Source of the DNA: Bryopsis sp. KO-2023
Lineage: Eukaryota > Chlorophyta > Ulvophyceae > Bryopsidales > Bryopsidaceae
Assembly: GCA_030272585.1 (NCBI GenBank)
Contig: BSYQ01000001.1
Location: forward strand, 1,860,001-1,924,000
Reading direction: 5' to 3'
Length of the DNA stretch: 64,000 nt
Part shown: piece by piece, positions 27,525 to 60,972 of the stretch
How the letters are laid out: each line of letters starts with the position of its first letter
How positions within the stretch are numbered: the first letter of the stretch is position 1
Translations under genes and position numbers: made by a program
Notes under the pieces: model-generated
The model's input: the letters and a program-made list of their open reading frames with translations, nothing else
The model's database searches: none
Told to the model about the DNA's origin: nothing

Positions 27525-28877
27525 TTCTAAGCGCTCCACTTTGAAAGAATAGTGACGAAGCCTGTCGAAAGGAACGTTCCTAGAGTCTCAGTCCGATGTG
27601 CCGTTGATAGCTCTGTCGGATGTCGTCTTTTCCCAGGCTCACAGCGGCGATGTTATTTCTTTGTCGCGGTCACTTCGAGTTTCTGGCATCGCGTCCTGTC
27701 GGCGTCCCTCCACAGATATCCTCACACATATCCCAACCACGGGACACACCAACAACCCCCCATATCTGGCATCAGCGTCCCATTGAATCACACCCGCGGC
27801 CCCTCGAAACGTCGCATCGTTTGCTGGCATGTCGGTCTCTTGATTCGATTCCTGCTAACTTCCCACACTTGAAGACACACCCAAGGCGTTCTGGTTTGGT
27901 TTCCGACTTTGATGGGGGGTTCCTATCAATTCTCCAGTGTGTGCGGTGGTGGTAGGCTCGCATCAAATTTTGGGCGGGCCGCTCTACGCAATCAATCACC
28001 CACATGACACGAGCCTAACATCGCTGACGCGCGCGTTGAGGTGCAGCCCTAAACAAAGAGGGGGGTGGTCACAAGAAGACAGAACGGAGGTCGTAAAACA
28101 ACTGTTTCTGAATCGCGACCAGGGATCCACCAAACTTGCCCTGCTCTTGTGACCATGTATGGCCTCTTCTCTATGAACTGATTACGCCGAGACGCAACTA
28201 GACACTAAAACGTTCCCTGCAGTAGCCCAGGGTGCATATGAAACGGAAATCAGCTAATGGTGCAGTTTTAGACGCCGAGGAGTTTTGGTCAAAAAGTATG
28301 TGATTACATATTGTGGTGGGGGTGTTTTGTCTTGCCAGGTATCGGATATGTGGTGAATCACACGGACGAAGTTGCAAAGGCTTGTGGTGAAACCTCCTGT
28401 TGATTGTGTGCTGTGAACGGTTTTTCACTCAACACAAATGATGGGATGCAGAGTCCAGGTCAAAGATTCAACTCCTATCTTGCTGAACCCACGCACAAAG
28501 ACACCAGCCTTCCCACAGTTCATCGAATTCTCTCGTGTTACAATTCAGTCTACAAACAAACACTCTTGCAATGCGCATGGCACTGCGGCTGATGTGATAT
28601 GCGTTCTTTTGCTTGAACAACACTTCACGTTGCAACAGCTCGATGTCGAAGCAGCCTTCAGATATGTGAGGGGATATGATGTGCAACAGGGGGCGGGGGG
28701 CAGTGAAAGATTTTGATTTGCTTGGGTGGATGGATCTTGGTTTGCTGGCCCCCTTCCTTTCCCAAGCAAGCCATTACTCTTCAGCGTGGTACCACGGGAA
28801 AGCCAGAATTAGATGGGGAGCATCTAAGAGCGATTAAATTTGCTTGAGGGTCCATTGCGTTGGATTTCGGTTGAATC
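27525..28877. other. Divergent intergenic region
   Basis: This lies between the GT31 start (-) and the two-RRM protein start (+), so it carries both 5' flanks. The first half is GC-balanced without a convincing gene. A fragment near 28580-28716 resembles retrotransposon reverse transcriptase and is listed separately. Confidence 0.6.
28580..28716 (+). mobile_element. Possible relic of a Ty1/copia reverse transcriptase
   Basis: The + frame reads ADVICVLLLEQHFTLQQLDV followed by EAAF, close to the copia RT pattern in which a hydrophobic helix precedes a H/Q-x-D-V-x-x-A-F block. Only this segment is recognisable; flanking residues and the frame degenerate at once and stop at 28716. If real it is a dead fragment. 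The match is short and could be chance. Confidence 0.35.
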
Positions 28878-29726
28878 ATGTGGTGGTCTCATTTGCAAAA
28901 ACTGTCGCTTGCGAGTTTGGCTGTCAATAACAAGGGTTGGTTGCGCGCTGCCGGTGGCTTCTCCGACAGCCTTCGAAGTGACACCTGGAGCTTGGATAGC
29001 ATCTTTAGATTGTATCGGGGGACCGCTCGCGAAAACTATCGGGGCGAAATGTACGGTGGGGATGGTCAAGGCAGCGGGAGGCGAGTTTATGTTGGCAACC
29101 TGGCTTGGCGCACGTCGTGGCAAGACTTGAAAGACCGCTTCGGTGGGGAAGAAGGAGGGGTCGTTTTCGCAGAGGTTATGCGAACCGACGATGGTCGTTC
29201 CAGGGGCTGGGGAATCGTCGAGTTCAACTCACCAGAGGCCGCGATGCAGGCGATTCAACAGTTCAACGGGATGGAGCTGGAAGGCAGGCCCATAACCGTG
29301 CGAGAAGATCGGCCGGAGCGATTCGGTGGATATGGCGGAGGGGGTGGAGATGATATGGGCAGACGTGGTGGTGGTGGTGGTGGTGGTGGTGGTGGTTATG
29401 GTGGTGGAGGAGGTGACTTTCAACGCGGACCGGGGTACGGGGCGGGACCAGGCCCTGGGCCCAGCGGCTGCAAGGTCATCGTCCATGGTTTACCTTTCCG
29501 GTATTCGTGGAGAGAACTCAAAGACCTGTTCAATGACGCGGTCGGATCTGTCGCGCATGCCGAAGTCGTGATTGATAGGGACGGGCGGAGCAGGGGATGG
29601 GGCGTCGTGCGCTTCCAGGCTCCCCAAGCGGCGCAGAAAGCGATTGAGATCATGGACGGTAAAGACCTGGAGGGCCGCCAGTTAGGGGTGCACTTGGACA
29701 GGTTTGGCGACAAATTCGACTCTTGA
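28878..29726 (+). CDS. Glycine-rich protein with two RRM domains
   Basis: Intronless 282-residue RNA-binding protein. RRM1 is at about 69-144 with RNP2 VYVGNL and RNP1-like SRGWGIVEF; RRM2 is at about 198-274 with VIVHGL and SRGWGVVRF. A Gly-rich linker (about 151-195, GGYGGGGGDDMGRRGGG and following) joins them, giving an SR-like or hnRNP-like layout with a Gly hinge. The residues before RRM1 (MWWSHLQKLSLASLAVNNKG...) are unlike the rest. They may be an organelle targeting peptide, or the true start may be the internal ATG at 29049 (MYGGDGQGSGRRVYVGN), which gives a compact protein. The domain call is firm; the start and cellular location are not. Confidence 0.85.
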   Translation: MWWSHLQKLSLASLAVNNKGWLRAAGGFSDSLRSDTWSLDSIFRLYRGTARENYRGEMYGGDGQGSGRRVYVGNLAWRTSWQDLKDRFGGEEGGVVFAEVMRTDDGRSRGWGIVEFNSPEAAMQAIQQFNGMELEGRPITVREDRPERFGGYGGGGGDDMGRRGGGGGGGGGGYGGGGGDFQRGPGYGAGPGPGPSGCKVIVHGLPFRYSWRELKDLFNDAVGSVAHAEVVIDRDGRSRGWGVVRFQAPQAAQKAIEIMDGKDLEGRQLGVHLDRFGDKFDS

Positions 29727-31317
29727 AGTGACCTTTGGCGAGAAAAAAGACTCCGGGATGCAGCTTCGTGTGGTTTGTCGGTAGGGTGCTGTGTTTTTGA
29801 TGGAGAGTGAGTGAGAAAGCGAAAGAAACAGAGTTAAGTAAAAGAGAAAAAAGAAGAAGACTGAGTTCATCGAAACGATTTTTAAATGGAGGGGTGTCTG
29901 TGCTGCTCCAGTGAAACTGGTTTTGTTTTAGCCTTTTTTTTTTTTTGTGGGGGGTGAGGGGTGAATCATATTTTTCAAACATTTGGAAAAAGAAAAAAGA
30001 ATGGAGTAAAAAAAATGGTTTCTTCAGAAGATATGTTTTGTGTTTTTGTTTTTTTTTCTTGGAAGGAGAAAAAGGGGCCGTCTTGTTTCATCCTTTTTGG
30101 TGTGTTTATTTTTCTTCTTTTTGGGAAAGCATATATATATTTTTTTTGGAGGGAAAAAGAAAAAAAAGAAAAAAGGAATCGATGGATTTTTCTAGACGAA
30201 AAAAAAAAAATCCAAAAATCCACCTGGTGAAAAAAAAGAAAAGTAAAGGGAAAGAATTAGGATGCAGGATTTGTTTGGTTGTATCCCTGCAAAATGGTTT
30301 GTGTTTTGCAGTTATTATATGTGGGTGTTAAAAATCGATTTTTGTGATATTTTTACAACCGTAATGCACAGGGGTTTTTAAAAGCTGAGACGCAGTCACC
30401 AGTTTGGCTTTATTTTGTGCAGTGCTAAAGAAAATATAACGACGAAAAAAGAAAAAAAGAAAAAAAAAACTGAAGAAGGAAAAAAAGAAGAAAAAAACTA
30501 AAGGAAGTTTCAGGGGCGTTTTAAAATATTCAGAAGTCAATGGCTGGGGCTTGAATATGTTTTTCATCGTTCAGGTTTCTGTGGGGTCCGGCCCGAACAC
30601 ATAGGCGATTTTTTTTTTCACTGGGGGGTTGATGTTTCTTGTAAGAACTGGGTGGTGGAAGAACATGGAAAAGAAAAGAAGAAAAGAAACGAACACACCC
30701 AGGATAAGAAGAACACGCTTTTCAACTTTGTTTGGCTTTGTCTTTTTTTTCATTTGCCTGTTTATCAGTGCGTTCACGTTGCAGATTTGCTGGAAGTTTC
30801 ACCTCGGGAAAAATTGGCAGTGGATTGATAAAATCCGGGATAAAGAAATCACAACAGTTTCCCCCAATGCAAAGCGTATGACTTTCAAAATGGTTTGATG
30901 AAAACTTGTTGCTAACCTGAAAACATACAATATTTAAACCAGAAAAATTCAAGAAACAGTCGCCTCCACAATCTTTTCCCCATTATTGTCGTTGTTTGGT
31001 TGATTTTGCATTTCTCCCCAGAAAAGATTGTGGAGGGAAATGGAAAATCGATCGATAAATCACAAAAATGGGGAAAATTACAGCGACACCATCAGAGGCG
31101 GGTTTTCCAGCGGACGCTGATGCAACAGTTACTGTGAGGACAGCAATCCACCGATGTCAGACAAACGTCCAGGCGTTCTTATTCCCCCATTCCTCGTCCA
31201 CAACCAAGTCTCCAGGAATACTGATTTTTTCCGCATCTCTAGGCGAGGGTGCAACTGAAACGTGTTGATTTTTTTTCTTGCCAAGACGGGGTTGGAGGGT
31301 GGTTTCGAGGGAAAAGC
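29727..31317. other. Intergenic interval between the two RRM genes
   Basis: Starts with the 3' flank of the first RRM gene, A- and purine-rich on the + strand (about 29800-30700). A perfect inverted repeat lies at 30963-31036. The last part should be the leader of the second RRM gene. No gene was recognised. Confidence 0.6.
30963..31036. repeat. Perfect 16-bp inverted repeat, 42-bp spacer
   Basis: CCTCCACAATCTTTTC at 30963-30978 is exactly reverse-complemented at 31021-31036. It lies about 280 bp upstream of the start of the three-RRM gene and would form a stem-loop in DNA or RNA. Confidence 0.9.
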
Positions 31318-32433
31318 ATGGAACACAGTAACGTGTACGTGAAAAACCTGCCGCCGGAGGTGGACGACCAGACGCTCTTGACTCTGTTTCAGTCTTACGG
31401 AAGGGTCGATTCATGCAAGGTTATGCAGAGCAGGAGCCCCCAAGCGCGAAATTTCGGTTTCGTGAAGTTTTCAACGGTTGAAGAAGCCAGAATGGCCATA
31501 GAGCAAATGAACGGTGCGACCGTGGCCTCGACGGTGATCGAGGTCCGTTTTGCGGACGCGGATATCGGCAACAAAAAACCGCAAGTGAAGGAGGAAACGG
31601 ACAACTTGTATGTGAAAGGATTTCCCAGCGAATGGAGCGACCAGGACTTGAAGATTTTGTTCGAAAGTTGTGGGAAGGTGGTGGAGTGTCGGGTGCTCCA
31701 GTCGCGAGATCCCGAACGAGGCGGCGTGGGCTTGGTACGGATGTCCGCCGTGGCGGAGGCAACTCTCTCAATTCAAAGCTTCCATAACCGAGCCCCTCCG
31801 GGTGGGTCGATTGTGATGAGTGTTACGTATGCGGACACCAAGGAGGAAAAAGAGCGCAAGATAAGAAAACGAACTCCCGCACCACAACGGTACGACCCGT
31901 ACCAACGGCCGGTGAACGACCCTTTCCAAATTCCGACCTTCCCTGGCGCGGTGGACATGCAGAGGCAAGGTCTCCTCGACCCCCTGGGCTTGGGTTTGGG
32001 AAATTCCGCCATTAATCAGCAAGCCTTTGGAAACGTGGGGCTGGGGGCAGCGAATCTTATGCTGGACGTACCTGGGCAGGGCTTGGGGCTTCCCCCTCCT
32101 CCTAATGGGATGGGGGGAGTAATGGGGGGCTCCCCTCCGGCCAGTTTATACATCAGGAATATCCCCCCGGAGGCGGACAAACTGTACCTGTATGAGAAAT
32201 TTGCTCCGTTTGGAGGGATTCGGAGTGTGAAGGTGTTGGAGGACGAGGCTGGGCAATGCAAGGGTGTGGGTTTCGTAAACTTTTTGGACCAGGAGGCTGC
32301 GCAGCGGGCGATCGAAGCTTTTCACGGAAAGAAGGTGGGGGAGAAAGAGTTGCATGTAAGCTTGCAAACTCAAAGACCCAAGAGGAATGTAAGGACCAAT
32401 GGAGTAGGAACAGGAATGACTGGTACATACTAG
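31318..32433 (+). CDS. RNA-binding protein with three RRM domains
   Basis: Intronless 371-residue protein starting at MEHSNVYVKNLPPEV; an in-frame GC-poor extension upstream has no better ATG. RRM1 is at about 5-80 with RNP2 VYVKNL and RNP1 RNFGFVKF. RRM2, about 96-172, has NLYVKGF, but its RNP1 is degenerate (GGVGLVRM, aromatic residues lost), suggesting weak or no RNA contact. After a Pro/Gly/Met-rich linker, RRM3 at about 276-351 has SLYIRNI and CKGVGFVNF. The arrangement of two adjacent RRMs, a long linker and a C-terminal RRM recalls CELF/Bruno and ELAV proteins, which act in splicing and mRNA stability. Family placement is inference; the RRM calls are secure. Confidence 0.9.
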   Translation: MEHSNVYVKNLPPEVDDQTLLTLFQSYGRVDSCKVMQSRSPQARNFGFVKFSTVEEARMAIEQMNGATVASTVIEVRFADADIGNKKPQVKEETDNLYVKGFPSEWSDQDLKILFESCGKVVECRVLQSRDPERGGVGLVRMSAVAEATLSIQSFHNRAPPGGSIVMSVTYADTKEEKERKIRKRTPAPQRYDPYQRPVNDPFQIPTFPGAVDMQRQGLLDPLGLGLGNSAINQQAFGNVGLGAANLMLDVPGQGLGLPPPPNGMGGVMGGSPPASLYIRNIPPEADKLYLYEKFAPFGGIRSVKVLEDEAGQCKGVGFVNFLDQEAAQRAIEAFHGKKVGEKELHVSLQTQRPKRNVRTNGVGTGMTGTY

Positions 32434-48793: not shown

Positions 48794-50028
48794 TCAGAAG
48801 TAGTTCACTCCGAAGAACTTTGTGGCATAAACGAATCCGTTGTTATTGACTGGATCGGCGAGATGCGTCAGCCAGCAATCGACGGGGCCCTTTCCGGTTT
48901 GCATGGCTTGAGTGAAAAATCCAAACATTGCGAACATCGCCAATCGACCGTTCTTGATCTCCTTCACCTTCAGTTCGGCAAAGGTGTCTGGGTCGTTCGC
49001 CATTCCCATTGGATCGAATGCTCCGCCAGGATACATAGAGTCCTCCCCCAAGGGGCCGCCATTAACTCTGTACGCTTCAGCAAGACCCATCAACACAGCC
49101 TACACCACCAGAAAACAAAACAACTGCTCAGAATTGAAAAACATCTTCTCTACTGAGGGATGGTCAGAGAACAGAAGCTTCTGCTGGGAAAATAGAAACA
49201 AAACAAAATCCAGAAAGGCAGATTCTAAAAACGATCCAGAAATGAAATTCCTGACAGACAGCACAGGTTTGGATTGGTACTTCATTACTCAGCGATCAAA
49301 CGGCACGATCCCAAGGTTCAGAAGTGGGGCGTAGGCTTTCTCATTCTTTCAAGTTTCACATGATTCATGATGTCTGGCCGCCAAAAGGGCGACACGCATC
49401 CGTTACGTATCTCACCTGGATCCACACGATCGCGAGAATCGACTGCGCATGGATGAGCGACGAGTTGCCGAGGTAGTCCAAGCCACCGTCCGAGAACACC
49501 TGTCCTCCGGCCTTGAACCACACAGACTCGCCGAACTCGATGCCAACAAACTTCTCGAGGAGTTCGGGAGTCAGGCAGCCAGCGACGCCCATCATTGCCC
49601 AGCGAGCGTGCATAAGCTCGGCCTCGCGATAGGCAGCGAACGTCTGTGGGTCGCTCGACAAGCCAGCGGAGTCCCAGCCGTAGTCACCAGGGAATTCACC
49701 GGTCAAATAGCCAGGGACTGCTCCCTCGGAGTAAGGTCCGAGCCATTTGGCGCGATCGGGGCCATACCATTCGATAGCGGCCTTGACAGAAACCTGACGA
49801 GACTACACGCAAACACACAGAACGATCTCGACACTGCCCCTGTTCCTATCCAGAGATCAGCGTGTTCTCTTTCGACACGCACAAGTTCAACGAAGCAGAT
49901 AAGATTCGTTTCGATACTCGGACACAAGGGAGCGAGACGAGGGCGTCGATCCAGGGTCGATGCGCTACCTTGGTAGCACCCCTGGTGAGGGGACCAGCGA
50001 AGGTATTGGCAGCAACGCTGAAGGCCAT
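48794..50028 (-). CDS. LHCB: Chlorophyll a/b-binding protein of LHCII, plastid precursor
   Basis: Thylakoid antenna protein that binds chlorophylls a and b and feeds photosystem II. Minus-strand exons 50028-49969, 49802-49416 and 49099-48794, all phase 0, give 250 aa. The first 20 or so residues ([20 protein letters not shown]) are a short transit-type start. WYGPDR at about 32-37 is the LHCII trimerisation motif, marking this as a trimer-forming LHCBM-type protein. The first membrane helix has [20 protein letters not shown] with the Glu/His/Arg chlorophyll and salt-bridge residues. The third has [20 protein letters not shown]. Between them lie [20 protein letters not shown] and the loop [15 protein letters not shown]. 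It is head-to-head with MOCS3, the two start codons being 232 bp apart. Confidence 0.97.
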
Positions 50029-50260: not shown

Positions 50261-53061
50261 ATGGCGGACGAGCTGGCTCAATTGAGGGAGGAAAATACAC
50301 GGCTGCGAGCGAAAGTGTCGACTTTGGAGCGGCTGGTGGGGAATTCTTTGAAGGAGGAAAAACATGCAGAGAATGGGGGCGATGTTGCTGGTGCGCCCAC
50401 CCCTTGTGTTTTGGACCATGAATTGAGCACCCAACAGATTGAGAGATACAGCCGTCAACTCATTCTGAAAAGCTTTGGACTGGAAGGTGTGTGTGTGTGT
50501 GGTTGCTGAAAGAAGGCCAATTGGATTCAGTTTAACAGGCGCTGGTGTCATGGAATGCGACACAGCCATCATTTCTGTGCGATCCCAGATATATCTGATG
50601 ATCACATATATTTGATGATCAACCCCTTTTCTCTTTTTGTCGATGGACCAAAAAAAAAAACATTGCATTGCCTAAAGATTTGGAATGCATCAGTTTCAAG
50701 AAAAGAAAAGAAGAATGAAAAAGGATAGAAGAATTTTGGAAGGCGATCCTTCCATGAGATGAAACTGGGTTGATATCGTACGAAAGGGGGTGCGTTTTTT
50801 ACCCATTTGTACTGGCGATTTGGTGGCAGCCCAGGTTCGCTTGTGTTCCTCTTCTGTGCTGGTGGTGGGGGCGGGTGGCCTCGGCTCAACCATCGCTCTC
50901 TATCTTGCTTCAGCTGGAATTGGTAGACTGGGAATAGTCGACAAAGACACAGTCGAGATTAGCAACCTACATCGCCAAATCATCCACAGGTGTGAAAAAG
51001 GACACCACACTGTCGATCAGTCGCATTTTTTTAACTTATTTTCCCTCAAAGATGGTGGTTCTATTTCACATATGTGTAATGCATTTTATGGTGTTAATTT
51101 GGTGTTGGTAATCGAAACAGGGAAGCTTTCGTGGATATTCAAAAAGCGGAATCTGCTAGAGCAGCATGTCTTGAACGAAATTCATCGATTAAAGTGAGTA
51201 GCCAGTCCATATGTATCTCGATTCATTGGCCAGCATGAAATAGCTCAGGAAATGGAACAAACCTGAAATCATACTTAGTTTTCAGAGGTGTGGTCCAGGT
51301 AGAGGTTCACAACGATGGCCTGTGGCCTTCCACAGCATTGGATATAATCGAAAAGTATGATGTCGTGGTGGATGCAACAGACAATGCCCCAAGTCGATAT
51401 CTTATCAGGTATTGCCAATACACGTCCTGACCTTTAGTTTCTGGAAGAAAACAAAAAGAAAAAGATGGGAGGGTTGGGGTAAAACTCGGCTTAAACCTTG
51501 GTTTCTGGGAAGTAAGGCCTGTGTTCGTACGATGTTGTTTTGAAAACAAGATTATGATTACTGGCCAAGTGTCAGCAAATAGAACCACAATCGTTTCGTT
51601 GAGGTGTGTTTCTTTCCTTTGCAGCGATGCCTGTGTAGTTGCTAATAAACCCCTGGTTTCTGGAGCTGCGATCGGAACGGATGGGCAGATGACTGTGTAT
51701 AACTACGGGGACGATGGTAAATCGAAACACTTTGGCGCTTTCCCCATTTTCCTGCAAAACTATGTTTTCACTTGCTTGAAAATCTTGAGGCCTCAGTGTC
51801 ACTTTGCTTTATTGTTGTGGAGTGGAGTTGATGCGAGCACATGGTTTGGATAAATATACATATATATAAATATATATTGAAATTGAAATTAGTTTACACA
51901 AGGTCGAAGGCTGAGCGCAGCTCGTTACTGGAAATGCGTTATAGAATGAAAGTACGCAAAATCTTATATGTATGTAAGATGTTGCATAATTTTATTTCCT
52001 TCAGGTCCATGTTATAGGTGTTTATTCCCTGAATGCCCAGTTCCTGCGGCTTGCAGCACTTGCTCAGATGCTGGTGTGCTAGGGCCCGTCCCTGGAGCCA
52101 TCGGGGTCCTACAATCCTTAGAAGCAATTAAGATTATCACACAGGTGAGCTGATTTTGAATAATTCACATAAATCGTACAAAAACGTATTTAAAAAAAAA
52201 GCCCCTAGTTGGATAATCTCGGAAAGAAATTTGCTAGGGACCCCCCCAGTTTCCAAACTAGTTCGGATTTCATATTCCTGGGTGGTGTTTTTGAATGAAC
52301 TTCACTATGTTGAATGTCCAGGTTGGAACCGTTATGAGCAAGAAGCTGCTGATGGTAGATTTTCTCTCATCGAGGTTTCACAATGTGAAGCTCAGGGGAA
52401 AGGCGTCCAGCTGTGTTGCATGTGGCGAAAATCCGACCATCACGAAAGATTCCATAGGAACGTACGATTATTCGGCCTTTACTGGCCAACGGTTTGATGA
52501 TGGCCCAGGAGCTTGCGTGTCTATTTTTTCACCAGAGGATCGTTTGAGTCCGGGAAAGGCTTCGGAGAAGTTGGCAGAGGCCAATGGTGGTGCGCTGGTG
52601 ATAGATGTCAGACCAGAAGCTGAGTTTCGACTAGGTCACTTGCAAGGTGAGTTTCTGTGTCCGTATTAATCGTCGATAGGATAGCATGGGCCCCAGTCCA
52701 TATTTTTCTTTTTTCCCCCACAGTTTCTGGGTGTCCAGAACTTTCACTTGGATATTTTTTTAAGAGCATGTGTTTGATGATGGACAATGTTTTTTTTGCA
52801 GGGTCAATTAATGCTCCGCTTCAGGAGTGGAATTCTGAGTTGCCCAAAATTCTTTCAATGTGTGGTGTTGAAGAAGCCAATGAGCCTCGGTCGGATGGTG
52901 CACCCCCTGCATCATTTGTGCTAGTAGTTTGCAGAAGAGGCAATGATTCACAAATTGCGGTGGAAAGGTTGAGAAAAGCAGGAGTTCCACAAGCGATGGA
53001 TATTGTGGGGGGCCTGACGGCTTGGGCCGACCAGGTCGATCCAAGAATGCCAAAATATTGA
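50261..53061 (+). CDS. MOCS3: MOCS3/UBA4/CNX5 adenylyltransferase-sulfurtransferase
   Basis: Two-domain enzyme that adenylates and then sulfurates the C-terminus of MOCS2A and URM1, for molybdenum cofactor synthesis and tRNA thiolation. Exons: 50261-50486, 50830-50989, 51121-51193, 51299-51408, 51625-51716, 52005-52144, 52322-52646 and 52802-53061; in phase, 461 aa, the family's usual length. An N-terminal coiled coil ([20 protein letters not shown]) leads into the E1-like domain with ATP loop VVGAGGLGS (about 87-95), [13 protein letters not shown] and [15 protein letters not shown]. Zinc cysteines sit in CYRC (223, 226) and CVAC (298, 301). Cys240 in the [11 protein letters not shown] segment is a candidate adenylation-domain cysteine. 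The rhodanese domain ends with active loop CRRGNDSQ, Cys419. Exon 4 could start a few bases earlier; 51299 keeps phase with the best donor. Confidence 0.95.
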
Positions 53062-53623
53062 TTCGTTGTACCACCATGTGGCTGAATTGATGTGTAATTC
53101 CGTTCTTGCGAAACAGTATTCTCATGACTTAATGAAGTGAGTGTTTTGACTGTCATGGGGTTTACATTCGAGTTGTGCGCGCAAAGACATGCACCACGAA
53201 CAAGGCCATGGCGCAAGAAGGACGTGCATTGACGAGAAACCCTAATTTCTGGACAGTCCAAACGAACACCAGCAACATATTCCACAGCCGCAATTGACAA
53301 GCTTCCTACATCAAACGATCAACAACTTTCCACAAGCAATTTCTAAGAATCGGGAATAATAAAGCTGTACATCCATTGCGCAACCACCTCGCTTGTTCTA
53401 GGATTCCTGGTGTAGAAAACCAAACCAAACCTGGTGTAGAAATCAATGTAACATCAAATGGTGTTCTTTGACAATTGTACTGTAAATGCCCACGTGTCAT
53501 CTTGCCCCACAGACCCAGAATATCCCACTTCCAACAAACGGTTGATGAATCTACCAACCTAAGAAATTTCCCCTTCAGGCCCAAAGCATACCACACTGGC
53601 CTCTTAGATTTCAACTGCGAGTC
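53062..53623. other. Intergenic interval between two + strand genes
   Basis: Balanced composition without a gene. It should hold the MOCS3 3' untranslated region and the promoter of the RCC1/p25-alpha-like/TPR gene. Nothing else was recognised. Confidence 0.6.
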
Positions 53624-56600
53624 ATGGAGGCTAACGGTTGCGTCAAGGTCGACCCTCCAAAAGCAACTGGAGGAACACCTCCATCAACACAGTCACACAG
53701 ATCAACCCCACCCAATCCAACCCCCCCAAAACAATCGAAATGGGGAGTGTTAAGAGCGAAAAGGGCAGCCGCCAGGTTCCTGTTGGGTACAAGGAAATCT
53801 GGGACTACCATCGATAACATCCTCTCTGATGGATCGTCTGATCCCCTTGTCGTTGATGAGAAGATAAGTTTTATGTCCATTTGGAAAGTTTTGTCTGGGA
53901 CAGTCCAGCAAAACTGCATCTGGAGACTGGAGGGAAAGGAGAACGATGGCACACACTCCCCAACACGTGGTACAATCCCTGGCGTGAAAGTTTACTCTGG
54001 GCTGAGATTTGTGACTTGCGGAGCTTCACGAGACTTCGGGGCCGCCGCAAGTGTCGATGGAGAGGTTTTCATGTGGGGAAATCTTGATGACGACAGACCG
54101 TCCATGTGGAGCCCTCCCCAGGACCCCAATATCCCCTTGAATCGATACGATGCAAAAATTCCTGACAACGGGCTTGGCACCTACGCGAAAAGTCATGAGA
54201 AGGAATGGATTCCGGTTGTAGATTGGGATGGTGGGGGGCCCTGCCCCGATGGTCTCGACCTTTTTAGACTAGATACGAAGTTTCTTGTGAAAAGCATTGC
54301 TTGTGGCGCCAGACATGCTGTCGGGGCGTTGCAGAATGGTGGTGCGATTTCGTGGGGAGATAACAAACGCAATCAACTTGGGATCCCAGGTGAGGTGCGC
54401 TCTTACGGTCCCTGGCGCAGAATGTCCCTGTTGTTCATTTTGTGCAGTTGCAAATTGTTTTTTTATATTTTGGTTCAGATTGTCGACGAACAAACTCCCC
54501 TGTGGAAATTCCTGCGTTGAGAGGCATTCATATCGACGCTGTATCCGCGGGATCGTACCACAATGCAGTCATTCAAAGTGGAGGCCACACTTGGTCGTGG
54601 GGCCATGGTCAGTACGGACGCTTGGGCCATGACGACCAGATGAGCAGAGGAGAGCCAGCGTTGATAGACCATCTAAAATATGTGTTTATCAAAAAGGTAT
54701 TAAAAAAAATACAAAGCATTCGCTTGTATCGCAGACATGTTCATATCTCCAGCTCAAACCTTGGGACATTGTGGCCAACACAACGTGTTCGTTCTTGACA
54801 GGTCGCGTGCGGCTGTGCTCACACTCTCGCTTTGGCAATGGATGGACGATTGTACAGCTGGGGTTATGGAGACAACGGCGCTCTGGGGCGAGACAGGAGA
54901 ATGGGTGGGTGGAGACCAGGCCAAGTGAACATCGGGCCGTGTTCCCACATCGCAGCTTCAGGGATTTCGATGGCGATCACTAAGGCGGGGGCGCTTTTCA
55001 TTTGGGGGCAGTCGAAGTGGATAGGTCACAATTCAGGAGTGGAGGCTGGAATTCCCACAACCCCCGAGTGGTTGCAAGAAGAAAAGGTGAGAAGAACCCT
55101 CACACTGCTGGATTCTGTCTCGAAAGTTCTCGATACTCAAGTTGAATTCATTTTTGTAGGTCTTGCATGTTGCCTGTGGAATCGAGCACGCCATAGCTTT
55201 GACAGATGATGGTCGAATGTTGATTTGGGGGAATCGCAAACGCTTCCCGCAGGAAGTCGCAAAACTCTTCCCAGTATTTAAATGCGAAGAGACCTTCAGA
55301 GAGGCTTCTGCACAAAAGTGCCCTCAAGCACGCGAGGTACCATTGCACAGGGTTTATTCTCGTTGTTGTTTGAAGCCTCCACAGTATTTGCAGGGCTGAC
55401 AAGGTTGCGTGGTTGGCAGCTCGGCGATATCGCAATGGCAGAGGGGATTGAAGACGTGATGGAAGATCTGATAACAAAAGTAGAACGACAGGAAGGAACA
55501 GGCAGGAACGCCGCCGAACAGCTCAGATGCACCACAAAACTGGGAGAAAAAGACTCGTTTCATTCTCAACGCGTTTCTACCCCAACAACCGAGACATCGC
55601 CAGGGTATTCAGATGCAAACAACGATATGGGGGATCATAGCAGCACACAGCGCCATCCTGGGGAACGCATGGAGCAGAACGATCTAGACCTATCCACCAG
55701 CTCGCCAGTTCTCTCCCAACGCCGAGCCATTGGGCTACATAGAGAGGCCGACGTCGGAATCGCCCGAATACAAGACCAGATTCTTACTGACGTTCAGTGC
55801 GGAGATGCGTCAATATTGCTGCTTTGTGAGAGCAGCATTTACGAACCTCCAAGAGCCGTCATTGAAGATATCCTTCAAAACATATTCTTTGCATATGTGA
55901 AGGCCATTGGTTCAGGGCTTTTATCTTCGAAGAATGAAACAGAAACCCATCCAGCACAACCAGTGGAGATAAGTCTTGCAGGACTGCTCATGTTCTCCCG
56001 CGAAACTGCGATTTTGGACAACAGCCTCAGCCACATTGACATAATCCAAGAGTTCTACAAAACATCTCTCAACTCGTCGCCTGTGAAAACTCCAAGGGGG
56101 ATGAACACCATCAGTGCAAAATCATCAATTCCATTCAATACATTTCTGGATCTCCTTCTCACTTTAATGAAGGAACGATACCCCCACTCCAATGGAGACC
56201 AGGATATCTGCACGAGATTGCTTTGTACAAATCATGTGGCCAAACTTCAAAATCGCCCAACTGACGGGATTAGGTGGATCCTGCAGGAAGCAATGTCTCC
56301 AGATCTTTTACAGGTATCAAGTCGATGTTGATCCCGACATCAGAATTTGATATTAGGCCTCACTGTTTTGTTTCTGATTGTTCCATTCTGTGGCCCTTAA
56401 TTCCGGTGGATTTTGGTATTTTGCTCCTGACCCAATTCCACCAAATCATATCTGGTGGTTCTTTCTTTATTCCACCAGGCTGTTCTCTTTTGGAAAATAC
56501 CACAAAGAACCCTCTGTCAAGCCTTTCGTTCATGTCCATCAAACTGGCTCGTTCATTTCCCAGGTGATTGACTCACCGATGAACACGGATCTGTTGCATC

Positions 56601-59600
56601 AATGCTTTGCCTACCTAGCAGGTGAGGGCGAGAAGGAACCTCAGGATCTGAAGCTACCCCGTCAAGAGATTGTTCAGAGATTGAGGCAGAGGCCCGATGA
56701 TTTCAAAGTCCAAATAGATATTCTCACTTGGTTTTTGAATCAAGCTGGCGTTGTGCCAACCAACCTTCTCCAAATCGTCGAAGAAAAGCAAAGGGTACTG
56801 CGGGTGAAATCGCACCAAGTTAGAGTCATCCAGTTCTTATTGAAGTGTGGAGGGCTCAGGATTCATCGCCCCTGCAGGCGATCGAGGGAGACCTCAGCAA
56901 CCCTGCCAACCTGCCCGTAGAAATACCCTCCTGGTGGATAAACTGTAGCCATGACAGAGCCTACTGGAAGCGAACACAAGCTGAAGATCAAGCTATGAGG
57001 GCCCAACTCCTCAAAAACACAATTCTGGCCAATTATCTATTGAAGGCTTATCAACAGTATCCAGGCATGAAGACAATGGTAGAGGCTACCGCGGACAATT
57101 TTGAGCGAGGGAAAACTGTTCATGCCGCCACTTACACGGAGTTCATAGAGATAATCGCATTTTGCGTCATCCTCAGGGGTCTCAACTTGAAGGAAATGCA
57201 TCCCCCTCGAGTGGATGTTGATAATGGTGAGTGATCAGGTGTATGCCTGAGGCATCTCTGTGTGGAGCTATCCACTGCCCTGTATTCACATCAGGATGGA
57301 TCCTTGCGACTGTTTTTCAATGCTTCTTGTTCAGACGTTCGAGAGAGAGTGAAAACAGTAATGCAGAAGATAATGCGGTGGCACGAACGCACTTTGCACC
57401 CATGGAAATTTTCCAAAAGACAAAGAGGAGACGATGAACTCCAAAAAGAAGTCGACAGAATATTCTCAATATTTTGCTCTCTCGACCCTGTGTCCACCAA
57501 CGCCGGGGTTGACAAGATAATGTTCAGAAAATTTGCAAAAGACTGCAAAATCATCGACAACAGGTAAGCAAGAAACTTTGTGTGTTTGAAAGGATCGAAA
57601 TCGTGTGTGTCTTGCAGGATATTTACCTTTGGGTGGTATGCAGGGTACTGATGGCCAAAGTGGATGTCGTCTTTGAGCAAAGTCAGGAAAGCAGTCCAGA
57701 AGAACCTCAAGAGGCTGTTGAAAGTGAAGCACCCACTGAATGTGGAGGAATCGGAATTTTCTTCGGAAGCAATCCTTCAAATGACAGTGAACATGGGACT
57801 ACTGGGGGTGGTGGCTTATCTGCAGGTTGGGTTTTCATGTCCAAGCGAATTCGATCGCAATACTCGAAGCGAACAGTTCAATCACTTTCGTGTGGTTTTT
57901 GTGCAGGAAGCCCAAGCAGCGGGAGCAAGGGCACCATTCCTCCCAGTCCAGGAAACCGAAAAACCAAGTTGCCACAGGCAAAGAAGCCTCGATCGGTGAA
58001 AGAGTCCAGAGTCGGCCCCCCCAAAGACAAGAAAACACCCGAGCGCAGAAGATCACAACCAAAGCCTCCCGATATGCATGCAATCTCCTCCGCAAAGATA
58101 GCAGCCCAACTTATCAGGAGGAAGGTGTTTTCTAAAACCCATTTGAACAGAAAACAATTTGGTGAGGCCGTCCGACGTCTCGGAATTTTGAAGTTTCCGA
58201 AGGTGACAAGCGCCGATTCCAGCTGGAGGATGCTAGTAGAAAGGCACTTGGCACCAGTTGCGGAACGCAGAGTGGGAAAATTCGACGAGTACCTCCAGAT
58301 TTTGGTGTCTCCTGCAGTAATGGAGACGATCTCACAATGGGAAGCATCCTTGAAATACACGTTCAGGGTGAGCCTCGCTCCAATCAGTTCCACCCGACAC
58401 CTCCCGTTTGGGACAATATCTGACTTGGTAACTGTGCCAGGTCTATTCACGGATGGATGGCGTTATGGGGCACACAAACACATCTACGTCCCAAGTTCTG
58501 CTTGATCAAGCCAACAACACAATGAGCTTCCCAGAGTTTTTGTTCATGTGCGAGGAGAAGAATGTATTACCTGGTCTAGTGAATCGAAGAGAGATCGAAG
58601 AGGTCTTCAGGCTTTCGAATTTTGCTTCGGCAGATGAAAAGGACAAAGACGAAATACAAGTGAGTAACTGCCAATGCTTTTGAGTATCTCCCCGAATATC
58701 AATCTTTCGCACTCTGGTTGAGGAGCAGTTTGCTGAAGTTTGCGTGTGTTTTTCAGGACATGAACTACCCACAATATCTTGACGCTCTGTGCTTGATTGG
58801 TCTTGTCGCATACGGGAAACCACGTTTCAATCAAAACCACATGCTTCCTGGTCAGAAACTCGAGTCCCTCTTTCAGTACTGTGGACTGAAAAGGTCTGCC
58901 AACGTTCGCAGTATCGCCATAAAAAATAACGCCAACAAGATCATCAACCCGTACGATGAGTGGTTTTCTTTATCGTTCGATGAGCCCCCCGCCGAAGAAT
59001 CGTATTCTCTTCCGTTGATTTCTGAATGCGTGGTCCCGCCTGGCACCTGCCCTCCTGAAGTCGGAGCCCTGCTAGAGCAAGCTTTCGAAAGCCACAATGA
59101 ATCCAAGTTTGATGCCGCACTGAGCCTTTATAGAAAAGCACAGAATCTGTGGACCGACGTTGCGAATAAGAAGTGTTTGACGAAGGATGGCAGGCTGCCA
59201 CCCGATCAGAGACTATACTTCGTGATCGCCATGGGCAGCGTCTTGCAGAGCGATGGACAAGACCGAAAAGCTCTATCCATGTACAAGAACTTCGAAGATC
59301 AGGTTCGTTTTCCGCGGAATAGGAATAGGAAACGGCCGTTTGTCGAACACATCTCCTTCCTATTCCTAATTGGAGCGAGACTTCAGAAATTTCTGATAAA
59401 CACTGCTACCGTGCGATTCGTGTTGAACCCGGCCTCGTTTTCTGTTCCTAGAATATGGAGTTTCTGGAAGGACATCCAGACGCTGGGATGCTCCACACTT
59501 GCGTAGGCTCTGTACATTATCATGAAGGAGACTACATGGATGCGTTCAAGAGATACGTCCGAGCAAAAGTCGTCAGGGATGAAGCCCCTCATCTTGGTCC

Positions 59601-60469
59601 ACGGCATGTAGACACGGCTCTTGCGTATCACAACCTAGGTTGCACTTTGGCTCGGCTTGGGAAAGCTACGAAGGCCAAGGCCTTGGTGAAGCATGCACAG
59701 GATGTTTTCACCTCTGCTCTTGATCGCAGCCATCCACGCACCACAATGGCGGCGCTGAATCTTCAAACTATGGAAACGAGATCGTTCAAGGTGTGGAAAA
59801 TGGGGAAGAAAATGTTTCCTGGATATCTGGGCACTTGGCTTGCAGTTATCGAAAGATACCCAAGAAGTAGCCCAGTGCTTCATACCCCAAACTTTTGATT
59901 CATTTTTGTGGAGTGACATGACCAGCCTGTGAACAAACTGGACGTTTGGAGGCTGAAAATTGTGTGTTGGTGCTCTCCAGTCCAAAGGGAAAGGACCGCA
60001 AAAAACCCCCCAAACAATCGCCAATACCAACGCACTGGGGGTCGAGGTTGTGTTGTCCCATCGTGACCGAATCGAAAAAATCACAGACCGGCGAAAATCA
60101 GCCCGCAGAAATAGGCCAGGAAGGAAGGATGTCCTTTGCTCATTTGACGCCACGAAACGCCGATTGTGCAAATGCTCGATGAATATGATGGCGGGTATGA
60201 AAAGAGCCCCATGCGACATCAAGGACCTGTTCGATTCTCTCAAACCAGAGATCGATTCGCGTGCTTTGGGGGGGTGTGAGTGCTACGATTACAAAAAGGC
60301 GCTTGCATTCCAGCTGACAGAAGAAGAAACGGATCCGAAGGGAAAGGGGCATAAATCCGAGAAAATGGCAAAAAGGAAAAAACCATTGCAGCAGCCATCT
60401 CCAGTCAAAACTGCTCTCCCTGAAAGAGAGTTGGGAACCCGTGACACCATAATTTGGCCGTTTTGTTAA
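53624..60469 (+). CDS. Large RCC1-repeat + p25-alpha-like + TPR protein
   Basis: Proposed exons: 53624-54389, 54479-54696, 54802-55086, 55160-55336, 55420-56313, 56564-56803, 56878-57226, 57335-57563, 57644-58367, 58441-58659, 58757-59302, 59452-59790 and 59981-60469, giving 1824 aa. The N-terminal third has RCC1 propeller blades (SIACGARHAVGALQNGGAIS, AGSYHNAVIQSGGHTWSWGH, VACGCAHTLALAMDGRLYSW, VACGIEHAIALTDDGRMLIW). The middle carries repeated helix pairs resembling the tubulin-binding p25-alpha/TPPP fold (FRKFAKDCKIIDNRVLMAKV, HLNRKQFGEAVRRLGIL, MSFPEFLFMCEEKNVLP). The C-terminus has TPR units (GSVHYHEGDYMDAFKRYVRA, VDTALAYHNLGCTLARLG). A ciliary or microtubule role is inference. Exon 9's first part, the intron near 56804 and the last exon are uncertain. 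Two genes cannot be excluded, but no intergenic gap or start separates the parts. Confidence 0.75.
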
Positions 60470-60530: not shown

Positions 60531-60972
60531 GTCGAGCCGAGAGTGTCTTGTTTTTACAAGATGTGTTTTTGGAACAAAGACGGTCTGTGCATCAAATCTA
60601 TGCATCCATGAAGTCTAGGTGCTGCTGGGATGGGCATGAGCACCCTTGAAACTCACGATCCTCCCCCCCTTGTCAAGAAATCAGGATCTCGGCGATATTT
60701 TTCTTGGAATCTTGTGAACCATCTGCGTGTGACACATGGCCTCTGTGAGCAAAACCAATAAAGAAAAAAGCAACCAAATCCATGCAGACCAGAAAGTAAC
60801 ATTAATTTTGAATATATATAATGATCAATAGATCAAGCAAGCTTTTTTTAATTTCCACCTCAAGGCCGTGGGCGAAAGAACAGAGCACAAATCAGATGTA
60901 TGGTGAAAAACCGTTTTTTTTGTTTTAAATAGATATATTTTGACCCAAACTTGGGTGGAGGGGAAGACAAAC
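60470..60972. other. Convergent intergenic interval
   Basis: Contains the second copy of the 33-bp direct repeat, then mixed AT-rich sequence between the stops of the RCC1/p25-alpha-like/TPR gene (+) and HIKESHI (-). No gene was recognised. Confidence 0.65.

Follow-up and report, generated by a model that had tools for sequence, protein, structure and literature searches.

Does a single gene of the green alga Bryopsis sp. KO-2023 join an RCC1 propeller, p25-alpha-like helix pairs and tetratricopeptide repeats (TPRs) in one large protein, and what would such a protein do? The locus lies in a 64-kb stretch of DNA, called the window here, within contig C1 of a genome of 91 Mb in 28 contigs. On the plus strand, 14 exons and 13 GT-AG introns between 53624 and 60469 give an open conceptual chain of 1794 amino acids (aa), free of internal stops, in which a propeller of RCC1 type is followed by a single incomplete p25-alpha stretch and by a TPR domain. 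The existence of the gene is confirmed in outline, and the locus is best read as a single gene with these three parts. The product is probably a scaffold protein. Tentatively, and with rather less than even confidence, it may be a large, non-enzymatic one that acts on flagellar or basal-body microtubules and is encoded by this one single-copy gene.

The gene model is as follows.

53624-60469, plus strand: whole gene model (GT-AG introns, open frame, model frame with the highest codon score in 13 of 14 exons)
53624-54389, 54479-54696, 54802-55086, 55160-55336, 55420-56313, plus strand: exons 1 to 5
56564-56794, 56878-57226, 57335-57563, 57644-57825, 57907-58367, plus strand: exons 6 to 10
58441-58659, 58757-59302, 59452-59790, 59981-60469, plus strand: exons 11 to 14

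The ATG at 53624 is the sole in-frame ATG within 53540-53760, and the stop at 60469 is followed downstream by an AATAAA at 60757. The ranking of frames by codon usage comes from training in which each exon was left out in turn, with all six frames compared. Open solutions were enumerated at four junctions only (9, 5, 39 and 8 combinations) and the others were set by eye; the agreement in phase is thus partly by construction and is no proof on its own. The first-pass annotation, made from the letters of the DNA, had given a protein of 1824 residues, longer than the present model, and its intron spans match the introns at 55337-55419, at 57564-57643 and at 56795 or 56804 to 56877, the last being intron 6, whose donor is ambiguous. 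Within the genome, a 766-base DNA probe of the gene matches itself only, pointing to the lack of a second copy. The p25-TPR part gives 13 genome matches, six of which are the same gene and the best of the others a TPR match (5.4e-4), so that no close paralogue is seen. A single-copy nuclear gene is the best explanation.

Profile searches with Pfam recover both RCC1 blades and TPR repeats in one phase-consistent chain, as they had been read in the first pass.

53969-55279, plus strand: RCC1-type propeller, aa 116-463 (Pfam WD40_RLD and RCC1; UVR8 in PDB, 1.7e-57; six blades by eye, four RCC1 stretches by Pfam)
59051-59766, plus strand: TPR domain of TPR_12 type, aa 1436-1624 (TPR_12, 4.2e-14; kinesin light chain 1, 4.8e-4)

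The propeller matches WD40_RLD at 9e-48 (163.8 bits, cut-off 150) and RCC1 at 4.4e-32; by these profiles its RCC1 repeats are predicted to form the propeller of the RCC1 superfamily. The TPR_12 match stands at 1.2e-10 in the whole chain and reaches the value listed above when the C-terminal segment is searched alone, and the repeats found by profile place the protein among TPR proteins. Repeats of TPR_12 type are common to kinesin light chain and nephrocystin-3, and the scores (kinesin light chain as listed; TPR_NPHP3 at 9e-4, 19.1 bits versus a cut-off of 100) speak for a resemblance of class and not for orthology.

The propeller meets the rest of the chain at a short intron, where a division into two genes can be weighed.

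55337-55419, plus strand: intron 4, junction of propeller and rest, 83 bases (read-through meets a stop; next ATG at 55435)

Read-through of exon 4 reaches an in-frame stop inside this intron and a new ATG follows soon after it, as would be seen if an RCC1 protein ended within intron 4 and an adjacent gene for a p25-like/TPR protein began at 55435. Such a pair is improbable: a gap of about 40 bases could hardly accommodate two untranslated regions, intron 4 is ordinary in its ends and its length (the 12 listed introns measure 73-250 bases), and a published dinoflagellate protein also fuses RCC1 with p25alpha (PMC10304595). One gene is favoured over two.

Between propeller and TPR domain lies the least regular part of the chain, in which five p25-alpha or EF-hand-like units can be considered.

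55852-56193, plus strand: candidate p25/EF-hand-like unit 1, aa 627-740, the first of the first-pass annotation, not established (no Pfam match; in-register alignment with the genome's own p25 gene, score equalled in 1 of 300 shuffles)
56998-57198, plus strand: candidate p25-like unit 2, aa 898-964, the weakest (best alignment equalled in 11 of 300 shuffles; profile score in 51 of 500)
57433-57690, plus strand: p25-alpha unit 3, aa 1007-1065, split by intron 57564-57643 (the sole Pfam-supported p25 stretch)
58077-58337, plus strand: candidate EF-hand-like unit 4, aa 1168-1254, not established
58338-58822, plus strand: candidate p25-like unit 5, aa 1255-1359, the third of the first-pass annotation, not established (in-register alignment with the genome's own TPPP, 2 of 300 shuffles)

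At least three p25-alpha/EF-hand-like units had been claimed. Pfam supports that at about 57433-57690 but neither of those at 55852-56193 and 58338-58822. The passing stretch, aa 1016-1065, matches p25-alpha (PF05517) at 8.4e-5, with 23.3 bits against a cut-off of 22.6, over profile positions 3-53 of 153; searched as a separate segment it reaches 5.8e-6. For the other two and for the two further candidates, Pfam returned no p25 match at E <= 10, with filters that drop most matches above about 0.1. The profile search that had been proposed for the conceptual protein thus recovers RCC1, TPR_12 and one partial p25-alpha, and no further p25-alpha units; the 12 families listed for the full chain at E <= 1 include none of EF-hand type. 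A genome-wide PF05517 search gave 8 matches, and the window's own p25 exon was not among them. As to the presence of at least two p25alpha domains, one passes Pfam and the others give weak in-register signals only.

Those weaker signals were compared with shuffled sequences. Of 28 aligned sequence pairs, 10 set unit against unit, and for none of these was the observed score so rare that at most 15 of 300 shuffles reached it. When units 1, 2, 4 and 5 were each aligned with three p25 stretches known from the genome, three of the 12 alignments stood out (1, 2 and 11 of 300). Against a hidden Markov model (HMM) built from six p25 sequences, unit 5 scored 6.3 bits, a value that none of 500 shuffles reached, in two short pieces covering the C-terminal part of the domain only; the score of unit 4 was reached by 3 of 500, that of unit 1 (0.3 bits) by 30 and that of unit 2b by 51, and stretch 2a gave no score. 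As controls for this HMM, the TPR score was reached by 206 of 500 shuffles and RCC1 gave no score. For the whole region with unit 3 removed, the full-sequence score was reached in 0 of 400 shuffles (163 or 164 gave any score), and the best-domain score by no shuffle with one HMM and by three with the other, for which unit 3 had served as one of the seeds. The predicted structure of unit 1 is of low confidence (predicted local distance difference test, pLDDT, 45.5). Kinship of the candidate units with p25, as judged by the genome's own p25 proteins, is at most suggested.

A short motif, L(V)xxxF(Y)xxF, marks the start of the p25alpha domain in TPPP-like proteins (PMC10304595), and it is present as VDRIFSIF at aa 1013, where unit 3 begins. 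A second strict VxxxFxxF match falls at aa 456, inside the propeller, and units 1, 2 and 5 fit only with Y accepted in place of the last F. With a final Y allowed, a change made after the units had been seen, aa 561-1520 hold four matches, a count found in 0 of 1000 shuffles; with a strict final F they hold only one.

The end of unit 3 runs into the sole exon that fails the codon test, and the linker that follows is affected as well.

57676-57825, plus strand: stretch favouring another frame (0.247 versus -0.012 bits per codon; two open splice solutions)
57909-58073, plus strand: basic proline-rich linker, aa 1112-1166, isoelectric point (pI) 11.75 (57978-58073 kept in both splice models)

Over the whole of exon 57644-57825 the alternative frame scores 0.197 versus 0.056 bits per codon for the model frame. 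Its first codons do not discriminate between frames (3.94 bits over 11 codons versus 2.66 bits over 8 codons). From 57676 onward the model frame falls below all 164 on-frame windows of other exons (lowest -0.008), windows that come from exons which trained the codon model and are favoured by it, the tested stretch having had no part in training; the other frame exceeds all 324 off-frame windows (highest 0.184). Just past the next intron, 57907-57977 still favours the other frame (5.86 versus 1.66 bits over 23 codons), and 57978-58073 favours the model frame. From about 57676 on, the model probably has the wrong frame for this exon, the cause being either different splicing or a frame change in the gene or the assembly, and whichever cause holds, the protein of the first pass is probably wrong in this stretch. 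A second splice path, in which exons begin at 57678 and 57978, yields an open chain of 1759 aa and loses the VDVVF part of the p25 match.

The same signal bears on whether the gene is intact. A decaying or misassembled gene, with a real lesion or a sequence error near 57676, has in its favour the codon preference for a different frame, the failure of either open splice solution to retain both sides of the p25 match, and the p25 score, which climbs from 27.0 to 34.2 bits once the two frames are merged at the protein level, although the match then still stops at profile position 58. This explanation is rather improbable, given that codon bias is kept in the other 13 exons, that the modelled chain has no internal stop and that the alternative splice path is open too.

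How new the architecture is depends on which parts are counted. The dinoflagellate Cladocopium goreaui encodes CAI3986388, a protein of 1281 aa with two short p25alpha domains, an ATS1/RCC1 domain, DUF1415 and DUF760 (Orosz 2023, PMC10304595 Table 3, section 5.4), for which the author considers tubulin binding likely to be important (PMC10304595). Like the Bryopsis protein it holds p25alpha and ATS1/RCC1 in one chain; it differs, in a comparison by description and not by alignment, in its two short p25alpha domains, in DUF1415 and DUF760 and in having no TPR listed in that table. Green algal multidomain p25alpha proteins, known from Chlamydomonas, Volvox, Micromonas and others, carry between one and three short p25alpha domains and frequently EF-hands as well (Orosz 2012, PMC3498115 Table 3). 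They are likewise larger chains, with likely members in the Bryopsis genome on contigs C9 and C1, and unlike the protein described here they have no RCC1 or TPR listed in the table. Short-type TPPP and Chlamydomonas FAP265 share with the Bryopsis protein the first part of the p25alpha domain, including the VxxxFxxF start (PMC10304595), whereas the Bryopsis protein has no match to the C-terminal part, lacks GxGxGxxGR and has its unit buried in 1794 aa. This Rossmann-like motif sits in the C-terminal part of the p25alpha domain, which some forms do not have (PMC3498115).

The first-pass statement that no named protein has this exact order agrees with the open-licence literature once TPR is included, as searches there did not find the combination of RCC1, p25-alpha and TPR; it does not hold for RCC1 with p25alpha, already tabulated as CAI3986388 (PMC10304595). 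CAI3986388 aside, where p25-alpha is mentioned in that literature together with RCC1 or tetratricopeptide, the passages found concern different proteins, and the p25-alpha entry seen in PMC7951837 carries no TPR. The fusion of RCC1 with p25alpha is thus already in print, and the addition of TPR appears new among known multidomain p25alpha proteins. The genome itself holds a short TPPP gene and genes with EF-hand plus p25 elsewhere (contigs C9 and C1). At C9:3579438-3587879 (L009, L011, L012), two near-alike p25 stretches are separated by about 7 kb, and upstream of one of them stand an EF-hand and another p25 unit. A gene with an EF-hand and a double p25 has likely been duplicated in tandem here.

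What the protein does can be approached through its genomic and published context. Four exon matches to a radial spoke protein fall together at a single place in the genome, which therefore keeps a motile-cilium gene. The incidence of p25alpha has been reported to correlate strongly with the flagellum, the author adding that functional evidence is limited (PMC10304595). The ciliary placement is made because of these two observations. In the proposed mechanism, propeller and TPR domain would bind protein partners, further degenerate p25/EF-hand-like helix pairs would lie between them, and microtubules would be contacted by charge, not through the p25 core but through the basic proline-rich linker that follows the p25 unit; the whole protein would then act on flagellar or basal-body microtubules. 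In TPPP/p25, microtubules are bound by two basic disordered tails and not by the folded core (PMC4542545), and the linker, at its pI of 11.75, resembles these tails.

Several observations weigh against a ciliary scaffold of this kind. Any tubulin argument from the p25 core is weak because the TPPP core does not bind microtubules (PMC4542545), which likewise weakens the analogy to TPPP and tubulin drawn in the first pass. When the whole protein was shuffled 500 times, 30 of the shuffles reached the charge peak of the linker, and the C-terminal tail has an equal one. The p25 stretch is partial and lies just above its cut-off, and neither GxGxGxxGR nor its relaxed form without the R occurs in the 1794-aa model. 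RPGR had been offered as a ciliary parallel, and an RCC1 propeller near the N-terminus is indeed common to both. Among solved structures, however, the Bryopsis propeller is nearest to UVR8 and HERC2 (5.3e-55 for the latter), with RPGR at 2.1e-30, below RCC1 itself as well; the analogy is therefore one of shared fold only. An orthologue of RPGR was rejected, as RPGR is far from the best-scoring RCC1 relative. Searches with the C-terminal 299 aa as query found no relative in viral contigs (no pattern match) or in bacterial and archaeal genomes (23 pattern matches, none related).

These points leave room for the same single gene in a non-ciliary role, as a cytoplasmic or nuclear RCC1/TPR adaptor whose middle would be a generic EF-hand-like repeat, its p25 likeness carrying no tubulin meaning. 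This is a serious if somewhat doubtful possibility, at odds with the reported tie between p25alpha and the flagellum (PMC10304595) and with the other p25 genes and radial spoke protein of the genome. The bolder proposal of a new ciliary scaffold family is unlikely: it would combine an N-terminal RCC1 propeller with an array of four or five helix pairs that are degenerate and p25/EF-hand-like, with a basic linker in contact with microtubules and with C-terminal TPR docking, would be conserved in ciliated green-type algae and would tie cargo or regulators to flagellar or basal-body microtubules. Should the architecture hold in RNA and recur in other ciliated algae, the protein would be an unstudied candidate flagellar or basal-body scaffold and would hint that p25alpha-like units had been reused as repeats beside RCC1 and TPR domains. 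Should it not, it would be one more large algal multidomain protein, with a partial Pfam match and unaided reading having inflated the repeat count.

Other genes of the window and genome were noted along the way. A rhodanese-like exon at 52651-53058 on the plus strand (21.9 versus 22.2 bits for the Pfam cut-off) ends about 560 bases upstream of the RCC1 gene. Also on the plus strand, open frames at 28875-29723 and 31243-32430 contain RRM stretches, two in the first and three in the second, and may belong to one gene for an RNA-binding protein. On another contig, C17:134903-198226 holds ten divergent ubiquitin matches (38-66% identity; open frames of 145-355 aa) within about 63 kb, perhaps a local ubiquitin-like gene family. 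At the junctions of polyubiquitin in four loci, L035-L038 (L035 and L037 being one gene), no inserted residue was found; Cercozoa, chlorarachniophytes among them, do have one there, and an origin in that group is therefore not favoured. The light-harvesting family gives 107 exon matches in the genome, which indicates a photosynthetic eukaryote. One such gene, of green chlorophyll a/b type, lies in the window at 48794-49802 on the minus strand, and among solved structures its best relatives are an LHCI-2 chain of 620 aa, which it matches in two stretches, and an Lhcb-a chain. At several paired places, matches to the light-harvesting family share the same score, some in opposite orientation (C9:482708/551333; C1:10975211/10984518; C4:6122760, 6168305 and 6209752), and are possibly recent, partly inverted duplications.
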